Source: Acidimicrobiales bacterium
Lineage (GTDB): Bacteria > Actinomycetota > Acidimicrobiia > Acidimicrobiales > RAAP-2
Direction: 5' to 3'
Length of the DNA: 45,327 bases
Assembly: GCA_030039755.1 (NCBI GenBank)
Contig: JASHUY010000131.1
Span: 1 to 45,327, forward strand
Shown here: positions 36,916 to 43,654 of the stretch, piece after piece
Layout of the letters: the number at the start of each line of letters is the position of its first letter
Numbering within the stretch: the first letter of the stretch is position 1
Position numbers and translations under genes: made by a program
The notes under the pieces: generated by a model
Seen by the model: the letters and a program-made list of their open reading frames with translations, nothing else
Told to the model about the DNA's origin: nothing
Databases searched by the model: none

Positions 36916-39900
36916 ATGGCATCCGTGGATCTGGACCTCGGCCGCTACCAACTCGGATGGAGCGACGAGGAGGACTACGTCTTCAAGCCCAAGAAGGGGC
37001 TGAACGAGGAGATCGTCCGCGAGATGTCGGCGATGAAGCACGAGCCCGAGTGGATGCGCGACTTCCGGCTGAAGGCGTTGACGCGCTTCGAGAAGAAGCC
37101 CATGGCGCAATGGTTCGCGGTCAACATGCCGGACCTGGATTTCGACGACATCTACTACTACATCAAGCCCACCGGCGGGCAGGTGAAGGACTGGGAGGAG
37201 CTACCCGAGTCCATCAAGCGGACGTACGAGCGGTTGGGCATCCCCGAGGCCGAGCGCAAGTACCTCGCCGGAGTGACCGCGCAGTACGAGTGCTTGCGGG
37301 GCTCCACGCGCGTGTGGACCTCGCGGGGCATGGTCCCCATCAAGGAGATTGGGCCGGGGGATCGCGTGTTCGCCCTCGACCGGCGCACCCGGACCCTCGA
37401 GGTGGCCACGGTCGTGGCCGGCGGGCAGTCGGGGGAGAAGGAGATCTTCGAGATCACCGCTCGCGGCCGGACCATCGGCGCGTCCGGAAACCATCCCTTC
37501 CTGGTGTTGCGCGGCGGACGCCGTCCAGGTGCGCGCACGGCGCGTGACGTGGCCACGTGGGTGGCGGCCGAGGATCTCGCGGTCGGCGACCTCGTCGCGA
37601 TCGCGACCGACGTCCCCGAGTACGGCGTGCCCGCCCCGATGCTCGTGGACGGCGTGGACCTCGTGGACAGCGCCGACGGCGCCGGCACGGCAGCCGGGGT
37701 CACGCTCCCCCGGACCTCGAGCGACGACCTGTGCTGGTTCCTCGGGGTGTACCTGGGGAACGGCTACCTGCACCACCGTGGTCGGCACGTGTCCGTCGAG
37801 ATCGCCGTCGACCGGACCGACGAGAGGCTCGTTGCGGAGATCCGGCGGGTGGCGCACGAGCTGTTCGGACTGGACCTGCAGCCCAGCGGCGACGGGGACC
37901 TACTCCTTGGCGGCCCGACCGCCGCCGCCCTCGGGCGTTACCTGGAGCTGAACGGCTTCGCCGGGAGCTCGCTCGCCACGCGTCTCCCCGACTGGGTGTA
38001 CGGGCTTCCGCGATCGCAGCGGCTCTCACTCCTGAGGGGGCTGCTCGGCCCGGACGGCGGCATCCGTGACCATCCGAGCTCGAAGGACGCGACGCACTGC
38101 AGCGCGGGTGCGCAGCTGCTCTCCGACGTGGAGGAGCTGTCGGCCCTGTCGGGAGGCTCCGACCGCATACCGGCTGTCCCGGGGCACCCGGCGCTCACGG
38201 GCGAGATGCTCGGGATGCTCGGGTTCACGGAGGTGGAGCGGATCGAGCGGGCGGGCGTCGAGCCCGTCTACGACATCGAGGTCGCCGGGCACCACAATTT
38301 CGTCGCCGAGGGCTTCGTGGTGCACAACAGCGAAGTCGTCTTCCACCGGAACCGTGAAGACCTCGAAGCCCAGGGCGTGCTCTTCTGCGACATGGACACG
38401 GCCGTGCGCGAGTACCCCGACGTCGTGCGGAAGTGGTTCGGGACGGTGATCCCGCCGAACGACAACAAGTTCGCAGCCCTGAACTCTGCGGTGTGGTCGG
38501 GCGGTTCCTTCATCTACGTCCCGCCGGGCGTGAAGGTCGACATGCCCCTCCAGGCCTACTTCCGCATCAACGCCGAGAACATGGGCCAGTTCGAGCGGAC
38601 GCTCATCATCGCGGACGAAGGCTCGCAGGTGCACTACGTGGAGGGCTGCTCGGCGCCCGTGTACACCTCGGACTCGCTGCATTCGGCGGTCGTGGAGCTC
38701 ATCGCGCTTCCGGGCAGCCGGATCACCTACACCACCATCCAGAACTGGTCGAACAACGTCTACAACCTGGTGACCAAGCGCGCCCGCGCGGAGGCCGAGT
38801 CGCACGTCGAATGGATCGACGGCAACATCGGCTGCCTCGCGCAGGGGTCGCGGGTGACGACCCCGGCCGGGACGAAGCCCATCGAGCTGGTGTCACCCGG
38901 GGACCGCGTGCTCGCGTTCGACGAGGGCACCGGCGAGCTGTGCTTCCGAACCGTGACCGCCAAGCGGTTCTCGGGGTACCAGCCGGTGCGCGAGGTCCGC
39001 GTCGGTGCGCGATCGCTCCGGGTCACCGACAACCACCCCTTCTACTCGTATGGCCACGACCCGGACCACTCGTATCGCCACGACCCGGAGCGGGCGGAGG
39101 AGTCCGGGCGGTACCGGCCGGCGTACGTACGCGCCGACGAGCTGACCCATGCGATCGTCCCGGTGACGTCGGTCGACTACGGCCACCCGCACAAGCTCGA
39201 GCGGTCCGAGATCGAGGAGACCACCGGAGACCTCATGTGGTTGTTCGGCCTCTTCGTCGGGGCCGGCTCGATCGAGCGTGAACCGGCGCAGAACCGTGGT
39301 CGTCGCTCGGCACGCGTGACGTTCTCCACGCCCGGTGACGACCGCGCCAGGCCGCGGCTGCTCGAGGTCGTGCGTCAACTGCTCCCCGGGGTCGCCCACG
39401 AGGAGGGGCGCGACGGGATGAGCGTGCGCTGGGCGAGCGTCGAGCTGGCGGAGCTGTTCGAGCTGAACGGCTTCGCGACAGGGGCGGTCCGCAAGCGGGT
39501 GCCCGGCTGGGCCCTGGACCTGCCGGAGGACCAGCGCCTCGCGTTCGTGGCCGGCTTCCTCGACTCCGGCGGCCGCGCGCCCGAGGAACGCCGCGGCTTC
39601 TCGATCGAGTCGGAGAGCCGGGCCCTGCTCCAGGAGGTCGCACAGGTCCTCACGTCGCTCGGCGTTCCGTGCCGGATCCACGACGAGGAGGACGCCGACG
39701 GTCCGATCGGGATCGTCGGTCACGAGCCCCGGCGCAGTGGAAGCCACCGGCTCGACCTCAGGGCGGACGTCCGGCTGGTCGGAATGGTGAGCGAGCCGTT
39801 GCGCGCTGGGGCGGCACGGCGGCCGGCGCCGTCGGACGAGCGGTTCCGCAGGGTCGGCCGATCCGCCGTCGCGCTCCCGCGCTCGGTCGAGGTCCGTCCG

Positions 39901-40518
39901 GTGGAGGTGAACGAGGGTGCGGTCCTCGCGCCGACCTGGGACATCGAGGTCGAGGGGACGGGGAACTTCGTCTCGGAAGGGTTCATCGTCCACAACTCCC
40001 GCCTGACCATGAAGTACCCGTCGGTCTACCTCGTGGGGCCAAAGGCGTCCGGCGAGGTGCTTTCCGTCGCGTACGCGGGGCCGGGGCAGCACCAGGACGC
40101 AGGGGCCAAGATGATCCACGCCGCCCCGGAGACGACGTCGACCATCGTGTCGAAGTCGATCTCCAAGGACGGCGGCGTCACCACCTACCGGGGCCTCGTC
40201 CACGTCGACCCGGACGCGAAGGCCTCCAAGTCGTTCGTGCGCTGCGACGCGCTGCTGCTCGACGACGAATCGGTCTCGGAGACCAAGCCGTACATGGAGG
40301 TCGGGGAGCAGGACGCGCAGATCGGCCACGAGGCGACGGTGTCCAAGGTCGGCGACGACCAGCTCTTCTACCTGATGAGCCGCGGGCTCACCGAGAGCCA
40401 GGCGATGGGGATGATCGTGAACGGCTTCATCGAGCCCGTCACCCGGACCCTGCCGATGGAGTACGCGGTCGAGTGGAGCCGGCTCATCGAATTGCAGATG
40501 GAAGGATCGGTCGGTTGA
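36916..40518 (+). CDS. sufB: Fe-S cluster assembly protein SufB interrupted by two inteins (1200 aa precursor, about 466 aa extein)
   Basis: SufB extein segments (YQLGWSDEEDYVFKPKKGL; SEVVFHRNREDLEAQGV; SRLTMKYPSVYLVGPKASGEVLSVAYAG) continuous around two intein blocks. Confidence 0.97.
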   Translation: MASVDLDLGRYQLGWSDEEDYVFKPKKGLNEEIVREMSAMKHEPEWMRDFRLKALTRFEKKPMAQWFAVNMPDLDFDDIYYYIKPTGGQVKDWEELPESIKRTYERLGIPEAERKYLAGVTAQYECLRGSTRVWTSRGMVPIKEIGPGDRVFALDRRTRTLEVATVVAGGQSGEKEIFEITARGRTIGASGNHPFLVLRGGRRPGARTARDVATWVAAEDLAVGDLVAIATDVPEYGVPAPMLVDGVDLVDSADGAGTAAGVTLPRTSSDDLCWFLGVYLGNGYLHHRGRHVSVEIAVDRTDERLVAEIRRVAHELFGLDLQPSGDGDLLLGGPTAAALGRYLELNGFAGSSLATRLPDWVYGLPRSQRLSLLRGLLGPDGGIRDHPSSKDATHCSAGAQLLSDVEELSALSGGSDRIPAVPGHPALTGEMLGMLGFTEVERIERAGVEPVYDIEVAGHHNFVAEGFVVHNSEVVFHRNREDLEAQGVLFCDMDTAVREYPDVVRKWFGTVIPPNDNKFAALNSAVWSGGSFIYVPPGVKVDMPLQAYFRINAENMGQFERTLIIADEGSQVHYVEGCSAPVYTSDSLHSAVVELIALPGSRITYTTIQNWSNNVYNLVTKRARAEAESHVEWIDGNIGCLAQGSRVTTPAGTKPIELVSPGDRVLAFDEGTGELCFRTVTAKRFSGYQPVREVRVGARSLRVTDNHPFYSYGHDPDHSYRHDPERAEESGRYRPAYVRADELTHAIVPVTSVDYGHPHKLERSEIEETTGDLMWLFGLFVGAGSIEREPAQNRGRRSARVTFSTPGDDRARPRLLEVVRQLLPGVAHEEGRDGMSVRWASVELAELFELNGFATGAVRKRVPGWALDLPEDQRLAFVAGFLDSGGRAPEERRGFSIESESRALLQEVAQVLTSLGVPCRIHDEEDADGPIGIVGHEPRRSGSHRLDLRADVRLVGMVSEPLRAGAARRPAPSDERFRRVGRSAVALPRSVEVRPVEVNEGAVLAPTWDIEVEGTGNFVSEGFIVHNSRLTMKYPSVYLVGPKASGEVLSVAYAGPGQHQDAGAKMIHAAPETTSTIVSKSISKDGGVTTYRGLVHVDPDAKASKSFVRCDALLLDDESVSETKPYMEVGEQDAQIGHEATVSKVGDDQLFYLMSRGLTESQAMGMIVNGFIEPVTRTLPMEYAVEWSRLIELQMEGSVG
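37291..38328 (+). mobile_element. Intein 1 in SufB (346 aa)
   Basis: Starts CLRGSTRVWT, block B GNHPFLV, DOD-like LCWFLGVYLGNGYL and LLRGLLGPDGG, ends YDIEVAGHHNFVAEGFVVHN|S; exteins TAQYE|SEVVF. Confidence 0.95.
38833..39996 (+). mobile_element. Intein 2 in SufB (388 aa)
   Basis: Starts CLAQGSRVTTPAG, block B TDNHPFYS, degenerate DOD LMWLFGLFVGAGSI and LAFVAGFLDSGG, ends WDIEVEGTGNFVSEGFIVHN|S; exteins DGNIG|SRLTMKYP. Confidence 0.95.
39044..39091. repeat. 24-bp tandem duplication inside intein 2
   Basis: actcgtatggccacgacccggacc / actcgtatcgccacgacccggagc, 22/24 identical; encodes YGHDPDHS-YRHDPE. Confidence 0.95.
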
Positions 40519-40626: not shown

Positions 40627-40974
40627 GTGCCGATGCGTGAGGAGTGCAAGCACTTTCAGAGCCGCACGTACGCCTCCGGCGAGGTGGCGCGCTTTTGCGT
40701 CCTCGATCTCGCGCCGGAGGCTCCCTGGCGGTGCCCCGACGACTGCAAGGCCTACGAGCGACGGGTGGCCGATGTCGGCTGGGTGCACGGCAGTCTCGTG
40801 GAGCCCCCGGTGGAAGACGAGCCGTCATTCTCCGGCGAGGACATCTCGATCCTCGAGGACGCAGAGAGCATCGTCAGCGCGATCGCTCCCGAGGCGTTGG
40901 CCGAGGCGAGGGCAGAGGACGCCCGCCGCGAGAAGCGTGCCGCCGCGAAGCGGTGGTGGCGACGCAAGCGCTGA
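40627..40974 (+). CDS. Hypothetical 4-Cys protein in suf operon
   Basis: 115 aa between sufB and sufD; C-X16-C-X11-C-X3-C in CKHFQSRTYASGEVARFCVLDLAPEAPWRCPDDC; basic C-terminus. Confidence 0.75.
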   Translation: MPMREECKHFQSRTYASGEVARFCVLDLAPEAPWRCPDDCKAYERRVADVGWVHGSLVEPPVEDEPSFSGEDISILEDAESIVSAIAPEALAEARAEDARREKRAAAKRWWRRKR

Positions 40975-41153: not shown

Positions 41154-42527
41154 GTGAGCGCGTTCACCGCCGATCGTGCGGCTGCGCTGGGGGGGCCCGC
41201 GTGGCTGCGGAAACGCAGGAGCGAGGCGTTCGAGGACCTCGCCGTGATGCCGATGCCCTCCGAGAAGGAGGAGGTCTGGCGCTACACGCCCATCGACGAG
41301 CTGCGCCTCGACGAGTACGCGCCGCGCTCGGGCGCAAGCTCCCTTGGCGCGCTCGGGAGCGCCTTCGTCGACGGCGTGGCCGGCGACCTCGCGGCACACG
41401 CCGCGCTCGTCACCGCCGTCGACGGGCGCGCCGTCGCGGTGGAACGGCGGTCGCTCCCGGAGACCGTCCGCGTCGGAGGTCTCGACGTGCTCGCCGACAC
41501 CGGGGAGATCCTCGGACAGGTCCTCGCCGGCGGGGACGCGCTCGTCAGACTGAACGACGCGTTCCATCCCGATGTGGTCGTGCTCGACGTGCCCCCGCGG
41601 GTGGAAGTCGACGCCCCCGTCGTGGTCGTCCACTGGTGCACTTCCGGTGACCTCGAGCCGGACGGGACCGACGGCGGGCAGGCGGAGGAGGGATGGCCCG
41701 CGAGCTTCCCGCGCACGGTGGTGCGGCTCGGGGCGGGGGCGAGCGCGCAGGTGGTGGAGGTCGTGGCCGGTGTGGCCGGCGGACGGGGCCTCGTCGTCCC
41801 GATCACCGAGCTGGCCGCCGGCGAGGGGTCCCGGCTCTCGTACGCCGCGCTGCAGGTGCTCGGGACCGACGTCTGGCACATCTCGCGCCTCGCGGCGGTG
41901 GCCGGCAGGGACGCGACGCTGCGGACGTTCACGGTCGGGCTCGGCGGCGCCTACGACCGATCCCGCACGGACGCGCTCGCGGAAGGCCCGGGGTCGACCA
42001 CCGAGCTGCGTTCCGCCTACCTCGGCACCGGCTCCCAGATCCACGACATCCGCACGTTGCAGGACCACGCCGCGGCGCACACGACGAGCGACCTTCTGTG
42101 CAAAGGCGCCGTGGCCGGGACCTCGCGGTCCGTCTACAGCGGGCTGATCCGGGTGCGGCGTGGGGCCGTGCGCACCAACGCGTTCCAGACGAACCACAAC
42201 CTCGTGCTCGAGGAGGGTGCTCACGCCGACTCGGTCCCGAACCTCGACATCGAGGAGAACGACGTGCGGTGCAGCCACGCCTCGACCGTCGGGCCCGTGG
42301 ACGGGGACCAGCGCTACTACCTCGAGTCGCGGGGGATCCCGCCCGCCCGCGCGGAGCAGCTGATCGTGCTGGGCTTCTTCGACGACATCGTGCAGCGGTC
42401 GCCCGTGCCGGCTCTCGTCCCTCGACTGCGACGGGAGGTAGGGCTGCGGCTCACGAGCACGTTGGAGCTGGATCCGGAGGGGGCCGACCTGCCGCGCACC
42501 GGCCGCGAGGGTGCGGACCATGGGTGA
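41154..42527 (+). CDS. sufD: Fe-S cluster assembly protein SufD
   Basis: PSEKEEVWRYTPIDEL, TSRSVYSGLIRVRRGAVRTNAFQTNHNLVLEEGAHADSVPNLDIEENDVRCSHASTVG. Confidence 0.92.
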   Translation: MSAFTADRAAALGGPAWLRKRRSEAFEDLAVMPMPSEKEEVWRYTPIDELRLDEYAPRSGASSLGALGSAFVDGVAGDLAAHAALVTAVDGRAVAVERRSLPETVRVGGLDVLADTGEILGQVLAGGDALVRLNDAFHPDVVVLDVPPRVEVDAPVVVVHWCTSGDLEPDGTDGGQAEEGWPASFPRTVVRLGAGASAQVVEVVAGVAGGRGLVVPITELAAGEGSRLSYAALQVLGTDVWHISRLAAVAGRDATLRTFTVGLGGAYDRSRTDALAEGPGSTTELRSAYLGTGSQIHDIRTLQDHAAAHTTSDLLCKGAVAGTSRSVYSGLIRVRRGAVRTNAFQTNHNLVLEEGAHADSVPNLDIEENDVRCSHASTVGPVDGDQRYYLESRGIPPARAEQLIVLGFFDDIVQRSPVPALVPRLRREVGLRLTSTLELDPEGADLPRTGREGADHG

Positions 42528-42837: not shown

Positions 42838-42880
42838 CCGCCGCGCAGCATGGTCTCTCGGCTGGGGCGGGGTGTCGGGG

Positions 42881-43654
42881 ATGAGCCTGCTCCAAGTGGA
42901 GGGTCTGCACGCCTCTGCCGGCAACCGCGAGGTCGTCCGTGGCGTCGACCTTCGTGTGGAGAGCGGCGAGGTGCACGTCATCATGGGCCCCAACGGCTCG
43001 GGGAAGAGCACGCTCGCGCACGCGCTGATGGGCCGCCCGGGCGCGTCGATCACCTCGGGGAGCATCCGGATCGACGACACGGAGCTCGTCGGCCTGCCGG
43101 CCTGGCAGCGTGCGCGGGCCGGGCTGTTCCTCGCGCTCCAACACCCGATCGAGGTGCCGGGCGTCCTCCTCGAGGCCGCACTGGCGGAGGCACGTGCCGA
43201 CACACGCGCCGCGGAGGCGCGTGCCGACACGGGCGCCGCGGAGGCGCGTGCACGATTGCGCGACGAAGCTGCCGCGATCGGGTTCGACGAGCGGCTCCTG
43301 CGCCGGCCGCTGAACGTGGACCTCTCCGGTGGCGAGCGCAAGCGCAACGAGGTTCTCCAGCTCGCAGTGTTGCGACCGAAGTTCGCGGTGCTCGACGAGA
43401 TCGACTCCGGCCTCGACGTGGACGCGGTACGGGTGGTCGCGCAGCGTATCGAGCGCGCCACGTCCGAGTGGGGCCTCGGCGTGGTGGCGGTCACGCACTT
43501 TCACCGCTTGCTGCGCCAGCTGCGCGCCGACAAGGTGTACGTGCTCGTCGACGGGAGGATCGTGGCGAGCGGTGGCGCCGAGCTTGCAGAAGAGCTCGAA
43601 CGCACGGGTTACCGCGCGTACGGGGCCGAAGAAGGAAACGAAGGAGCGGCCTGA
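42881..43654 (+). CDS. sufC: Fe-S cluster assembly ATPase SufC
   Basis: MGPNGSGKST, LSGGERKRNEVLQLAVLRPKFAVLDEIDSGLDVDAV; GTG 42872 is an alternative start. Confidence 0.93.
   Translation: MSLLQVEGLHASAGNREVVRGVDLRVESGEVHVIMGPNGSGKSTLAHALMGRPGASITSGSIRIDDTELVGLPAWQRARAGLFLALQHPIEVPGVLLEAALAEARADTRAAEARADTGAAEARARLRDEAAAIGFDERLLRRPLNVDLSGGERKRNEVLQLAVLRPKFAVLDEIDSGLDVDAVRVVAQRIERATSEWGLGVVAVTHFHRLLRQLRADKVYVLVDGRIVASGGAELAEELERTGYRAYGAEEGNEGAA
43184..43255. repeat. 27-bp tandem repeat (about 2.7 copies) in sufC encoding AEARADT(R/G)A
   Basis: gcggaggcacgtgccgacacacgcgcc / gcggaggcgcgtgccgacacgggcgcc / gcggaggcgcgtgca. Confidence 0.95.

Follow-up and report, generated by a model that had tools for sequence, protein, structure and literature searches.

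Two class 1 inteins with degenerate homing endonuclease domains in a single sufB gene of an Acidimicrobiales bacterium

The sufB gene of an Acidimicrobiales bacterium carries two inteins in one uninterrupted open reading frame, which lies in the analysed stretch of 45,327 nucleotides (the window). We consider it likely that these are two independent class 1 inteins that invaded separate, recurrently targeted sites of sufB, that both excise themselves constitutively and are no longer capable of homing, and that both must splice before SufB is formed.

The ORF spans positions 36916-40518 (+ strand, as do all features given below) with the stop codon at 40516-40518. Its ATG start codon at 36916 is preceded by AAGGAG and agrees with the start of intein-free relatives; the program-made ORF reaches further in the 5' direction, to 36595, with the extra part lying outside the SufB alignments. 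The N-extein (36916..37290, residues 1-125) ends with TAQYE and is followed by intein 1 at site 125 (TAQYE/S; 37291..38328, 346 aa). The middle extein (38329..38832, residues 126-293) extends from Ser+1 (AGC) through DGNIG and contains the motif HYVEGC with the counterpart of E. coli Cys254. Intein 2 at site 294 (DGNIG/S; 38833..39996, 388 aa) precedes the C-extein and stop codon (39997..40518, residues 294-466; Ser+1 encoded by TCC). In silico removal of both inteins restores a SufB of 466 aa (junctions TAQYE-SEVV and DGNIG-SRLT) which aligns end to end with intein-free SufB proteins of congeners at 93-97% identity. The spliced sequence passes the NCBIfam SufB equivalog TIGR01980 with 654.4 bits (curated cut-off 346.4) and matches E. 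coli SufB (5AWF) with E=3e-117, extein residues 26-466 being aligned.

The genes of SufD (41154..42527) and of the SufC ATPase (42872..43654; ABC_tran) form the context of sufB. Between sufB and sufD a protein of 115 aa with the Cys pattern CKHF..C..CPDDC is encoded (40627-40974), for which a Pfam search returned no match. It is conserved (45-90% identity) in the sufB neighbourhood at many loci from Acidimicrobiales and possibly represents an unrecognised Suf accessory protein.

Both inteins show the features of class 1, namely Cys1, the block-B His (SGNH in intein 1, TDNH in intein 2), the terminal HN and Ser+1 (intein 1: block B SGNHPF, VYDIEVAGHHNFVAEGFVVHN; intein 2: block B TDNHPF, TWDIEVEGTGNFVSEGFIVHN). 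The initial annotation, which described inteins of 346 and 388 aa with these very residues in a single SufB ORF, is thus borne out by the ORF, the lengths, the junctions and the residues re-read in the sequence as well as by a Pfam/NCBIfam search, which detected two Intein_splicing/Hint regions and LAGLIDADG besides SufB. The splicing residues are invariant in 23 site-125 homologues (C6, H73 and H350/N351/S352 in alignment numbering) and in 34 site-294 homologues (C6, H73 and H392/N393/S394, likewise in alignment numbering). The block-F His of intein 2 is replaced by Gly, as in much of the site-294 family. AlphaFold2 models, calculated from alignments of the window inteins with those of relatives, reached a pLDDT of 84.7 for intein 1 and 88.9 for intein 2. 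The top PDB match was the TliVMA intein (7qsu) with E=1.9e-17 for intein 1, and TliVMA (7qsu, E=6.9e-17) together with PI-SceI (1ef0, E=1.1e-16) for intein 2, the best matches being the intein-endonucleases TliVMA, PhoVMA and PI-SceI. Based on these models both window inteins are predicted to have the HINT fold.

Judging from the sequence, both inteins presumably splice and do so constitutively. The excision of each would start with an N-S acyl shift at Cys1, continue with a transesterification onto Ser+1 and the cyclisation of the terminal Asn assisted by the penultimate His, and end with an acyl shift that forms the peptide bond between the exteins. The product would be a regular SufB of 466 aa, available to the SufBCD complex. 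The dependence of mature SufB on two splicing events, as initially claimed, formally follows from the presence of two bona fide inteins. The inteins would persist because SufB stays functional only if they continue to splice or are deleted exactly and in frame.

According to the alignment with 5AWF, from which E. coli residue numbers were counted, site 125 corresponds to D147/S148 and site 294 to G322/S323, approximately 20 residues past Lys303. In E. coli SufB, SufE passes sulfur to Cys254, and the wall of the proposed sulfur tunnel includes Lys303 (PMC5571166). Given the insertion positions relative to these two residues, either intein breaks SufB and should block its function until it is spliced out. 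The SufB intein of M. tuberculosis has a 252-aa N-extein, His-5 and Cys+1 (PMC8891592), which fit HYVEG/C, i.e. G253/C254 of E. coli SufB, referred to here as site 231. The comparison of sites suggested in the initial annotation revealed that neither window site is identical to HYVEG/C: the motif HYVEGC is unbroken in the window SufB, which hence lacks the M. tuberculosis-type allele with an insertion before Cys254 and Cys+1.

The loss of endonuclease catalytic residues in both inteins had not been mentioned in the initial annotation. In LAGLIDADG motif 1 of intein 1 (37735..37770, WFLGVYLGNGYL) the catalytic Asp is replaced by Asn (LGNG; LGDG in relatives), and motif 2 (38029..38064, LLRGLLGPDGGI; LLAGLLDSDGYV in relatives) retains it in GPDG with degenerate surroundings. 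In intein 2 it is replaced by Ala in motif 1 (39238..39273, WLFGLFVGAGSI; VGAG) and by Gly in motif 2 (39544..39579, FVAGFLDSGGRA; LDSGG). The catalytic Asp is consequently missing from one of two motifs in intein 1 and from both in intein 2, and neither intein possesses the acidic residue in both motifs that characterises active LAGLIDADG endonucleases (N/D in intein 1, A/G in intein 2). Since these residues are gone, both endonucleases are probably inactive and homing has probably been lost.

The substitution rates were compared between the window and three members of its genus (G008, G010 and G011). The dN/dS ratio amounted to 0.05-0.06 in the exteins, 0.16-0.44 in the splicing blocks and 0.29-0.58 in the endonuclease core, compared to 0.15 in the endonuclease core of G008 versus G011, both of which have an intact site-125 endonuclease. 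Some splicing-block changes of the window are lineage specific, and the ratio of up to 0.44 refers to the C-block, which is short and noisy. The window endonucleases are under relaxed constraint, and the splicing residues are kept.

In a search of 60 related genomes (the window genome being G000) both inteins were detected at identical codons in G010 (YP2.bin47) and G011 (JOPF271) of the same genus and in G024 (Centralia_MAG_56) of the same family. Site 125 alone is occupied in G008 and site 294 alone in G023, G046 and G049, and six congeners (G001-G005 and G012) have no SufB intein at either site. The closest named relatives put the host in Acidimicrobiales, outside the mycobacteria. G011 retains both catalytic Asp residues in both inteins (LGDG/LDSDG and VGDG/LDSDG); the endonucleases of G010, G024 and G345, a further genome with both inteins, are degenerate in both. 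In the family SufB tree, in which four gains or losses are required for site 125 and five for site 294, the clade of the intein-bearing congeners is weakly supported (84/47). In G049 (L042, 1742-4700) apparently empty and occupied site-294 alleles are joined at a scaffold gap of 10 N, and their 98-100% identical flanks suggest that site 294 is polymorphic in nature. Only a divergent intein-free SufB (46-47%) was detected in G007 (L044), G009 (L045), G014, G031 and G055, which belong to the genus, family or order; replacement, contamination and a missing contig are the candidate explanations.

In the intein tree all 23 inteins of site 125 fall into a single clade (99), as do all eight site-231 inteins (100), and the site-294 inteins have at most two origins. 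Each SufB site thus has its own homing intein family, and a duplication of one window intein into the other site can be ruled out because the site-specific clades separate cleanly. Between the window and G011 the dS of the inteins (0.37-0.47) is close to that of the exteins (0.32), which indicates that the inteins descended vertically with the gene. A recent phage-borne arrival was rejected, the single phage match being a distant one to a Gordonia phage tape-measure protein (27% over intein 2).

Scanning 84,980 species genomes with a degenerate 24-mer for the N-junction of site 294 yielded 83 stretches, with a SufB extein match at 69 of the loci examined. The scan loci and the related genomes together contain 23 distinct SufBs in which two or three of the sites 125, 231 and 294 are occupied; in a few of these proteins one intein is cut by the contig end so that a single junction is seen. 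Fifteen of them combine sites 125 and 294, six combine sites 231 and 294, and two are triples. They are distributed over Actinomycetota, Chloroflexota, Armatimonadota, Pseudomonadota and Woesearchaeota and originate mostly from MAGs. While the double intein of the window is real, the pairing is therefore less unusual than the initial annotation had implied. Multi-intein essential genes are of an already known kind; the SufB stacking pattern, of which no earlier report was found in the open-access literature searched (most subscription papers lay outside it), is moderately interesting. Co-occurrence was determined by junction patterns in 397 genomes sampled evenly across the order, with G000 included by construction. 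Site 125 is occupied in 11 and site 294 in 12 of these genomes. The four genomes with both (G000, G238, G265 and G345) represent four different families and compare to 0.33 expected (hypergeometric p=1.4e-4, uncorrected for kinship).

The initial annotation further raised the potential of a two-input post-translational switch. In such a switch splicing of one or both inteins would be conditional on oxidative, nitrosative or metal stress, and SufB would be released only when both conditions are given. There are precedents for such a role: splicing of M. tuberculosis SufB is oxidation-sensitive, its redox response being attributed to a Cys1-Cys+1 disulfide (PMC8529194), and DnaB of M. smegmatis contains two inteins differing in rate and stress sensitivity, of which DnaBi1 forms a disulfide to a non-catalytic Cys (PMC6195587). 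Each window intein contains two further Cys beside the oxidisable Cys1, the joint occupation of sites 125 and 294 exceeds expectation in the order, and the inteins persist though homing is probably dead. However, the +1 residue is Ser at both junctions, so that the disulfide of the M. tuberculosis type is impossible here, and congeners with a 93-97% identical SufB have neither intein. The splicing blocks furthermore evolve several times faster than the exteins, and in an intein-rich lineage co-occurrence needs no function. The switch therefore seems unlikely; an oxidised Cys1 or, as known from DnaBi1, a disulfide with a non-catalytic Cys may offer these inteins another redox route. The ribonucleotide reductase of G000 (L164, G000:C245:60500-68500), a B12-dependent NrdJ type as read from its sequence, apparently has three inteins in one ORF, suggesting that the lineage is rich in inteins generally.

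It is also rather improbable that SufB is a hot spot for stacking two or three inteins in which some lineages, including that of the window, kept the stack after the loss of homing because it is useful, for instance by delaying or gating Fe-S assembly, and in which stacking and homing loss are linked. The site-294 endonuclease is lost or reduced in 10 of 19 stacked but in 6 of 40 single SufBs (naive Fisher p=0.004); the link is not significant in phylogenetically independent pairs, which are too few. In archaea, single and double inteins have a detectable endonuclease about equally often, and neighbouring inteins hinder the homing of each other (PMC10643990). Due to this hindrance stacking may put an end to homing and thereby promote endonuclease decay. 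The SufB stacks, in which as many as three inteins occupy fixed sites in several phyla, with excess co-occurrence and often dead endonucleases, provide natural test material for passive accumulation versus retention for the control of Fe-S assembly.

We regard it as very unlikely that one of the inteins does not splice or only cleaves, with SufB working as fragments or the gene dying and being replaced by another SufB, as might be assumed from the degenerate endonuclease domains of both inteins and from a 52%-identical SufB C-terminus on contig C170 (L043) of the same bin. Every splicing residue is retained, and the extein dN/dS of 0.05 indicates strong selection on SufB on both sides of each junction. 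Contig C170, which apart from the SufB end carries a SufD on the opposite strand and a long, unrelated ORF of the peptidase-like kind, appears to have strayed into the bin and is a probable contaminant rather than the location of a second, intein-free SufB of the organism. An assembly or binning chimera of two singly invaded alleles, which the initial annotation had named as the outcome that would speak against its claim, is extremely improbable: although the bin is fragmented into 247 contigs, with a completeness of 70%, and G049 shows that alleles with and without the intein can be wrongly joined across an N gap, the window ORF has no gap, and the independent assembly of the two-intein arrangement in G010, G011 and G024, where the codons are identical, and in G345 rules it out.

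The preferred reading of two constitutively splicing, homing-dead inteins can be set against related systems. The SufB inteins of M. tuberculosis have been proposed as drug targets and stress sensors. The M. tuberculosis SufB (Pps1) intein resembles those of the window as a class 1 intein of the endonuclease type (359 aa) that has Cys1, the block-B His and the terminal HN, but differs in its site HYVEG/C, which is empty in the window, in having Cys+1 instead of Ser+1, and in its endonuclease, which is reported to be intact. The M. leprae SufB (Pps1) intein, which we take to be inserted after approximately residue 202, near WSGG/S, would match neither window site. Like the window inteins it occupies a SufB site other than the one in M. 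tuberculosis (PMC8891592). The SufBs of L103, L072 and L083 share with the window orthologous intein families at the same sites 125 and 294. The triple-intein SufBs of a Ktedonobacteria MAG (L048; 406+368+397 aa) and a Frankiaceae MAG (L084; 382+359+155 aa) differ by the third intein at site 231, and that of L081 (Ilumatobacteraceae) by the shrinkage of both inteins to mini-inteins (166 and 139 aa), which represents the end point of reduction for the 125+294 pairing. The haloarchaeal inteins MCM-a and MCM-d are likewise neighbours within one gene, each at a site of its own, and co-occur above expectation (PMC10643990), but both of their endonucleases are active. M. smegmatis DnaB is likewise an essential protein with two inteins that are unrelated to each other, DnaBi1 and DnaBi2 (PMC6195587), but the host protein is a different one and DnaBi1 is a mini-intein of class 3, while those of the window both belong to class 1 and have relic endonucleases.
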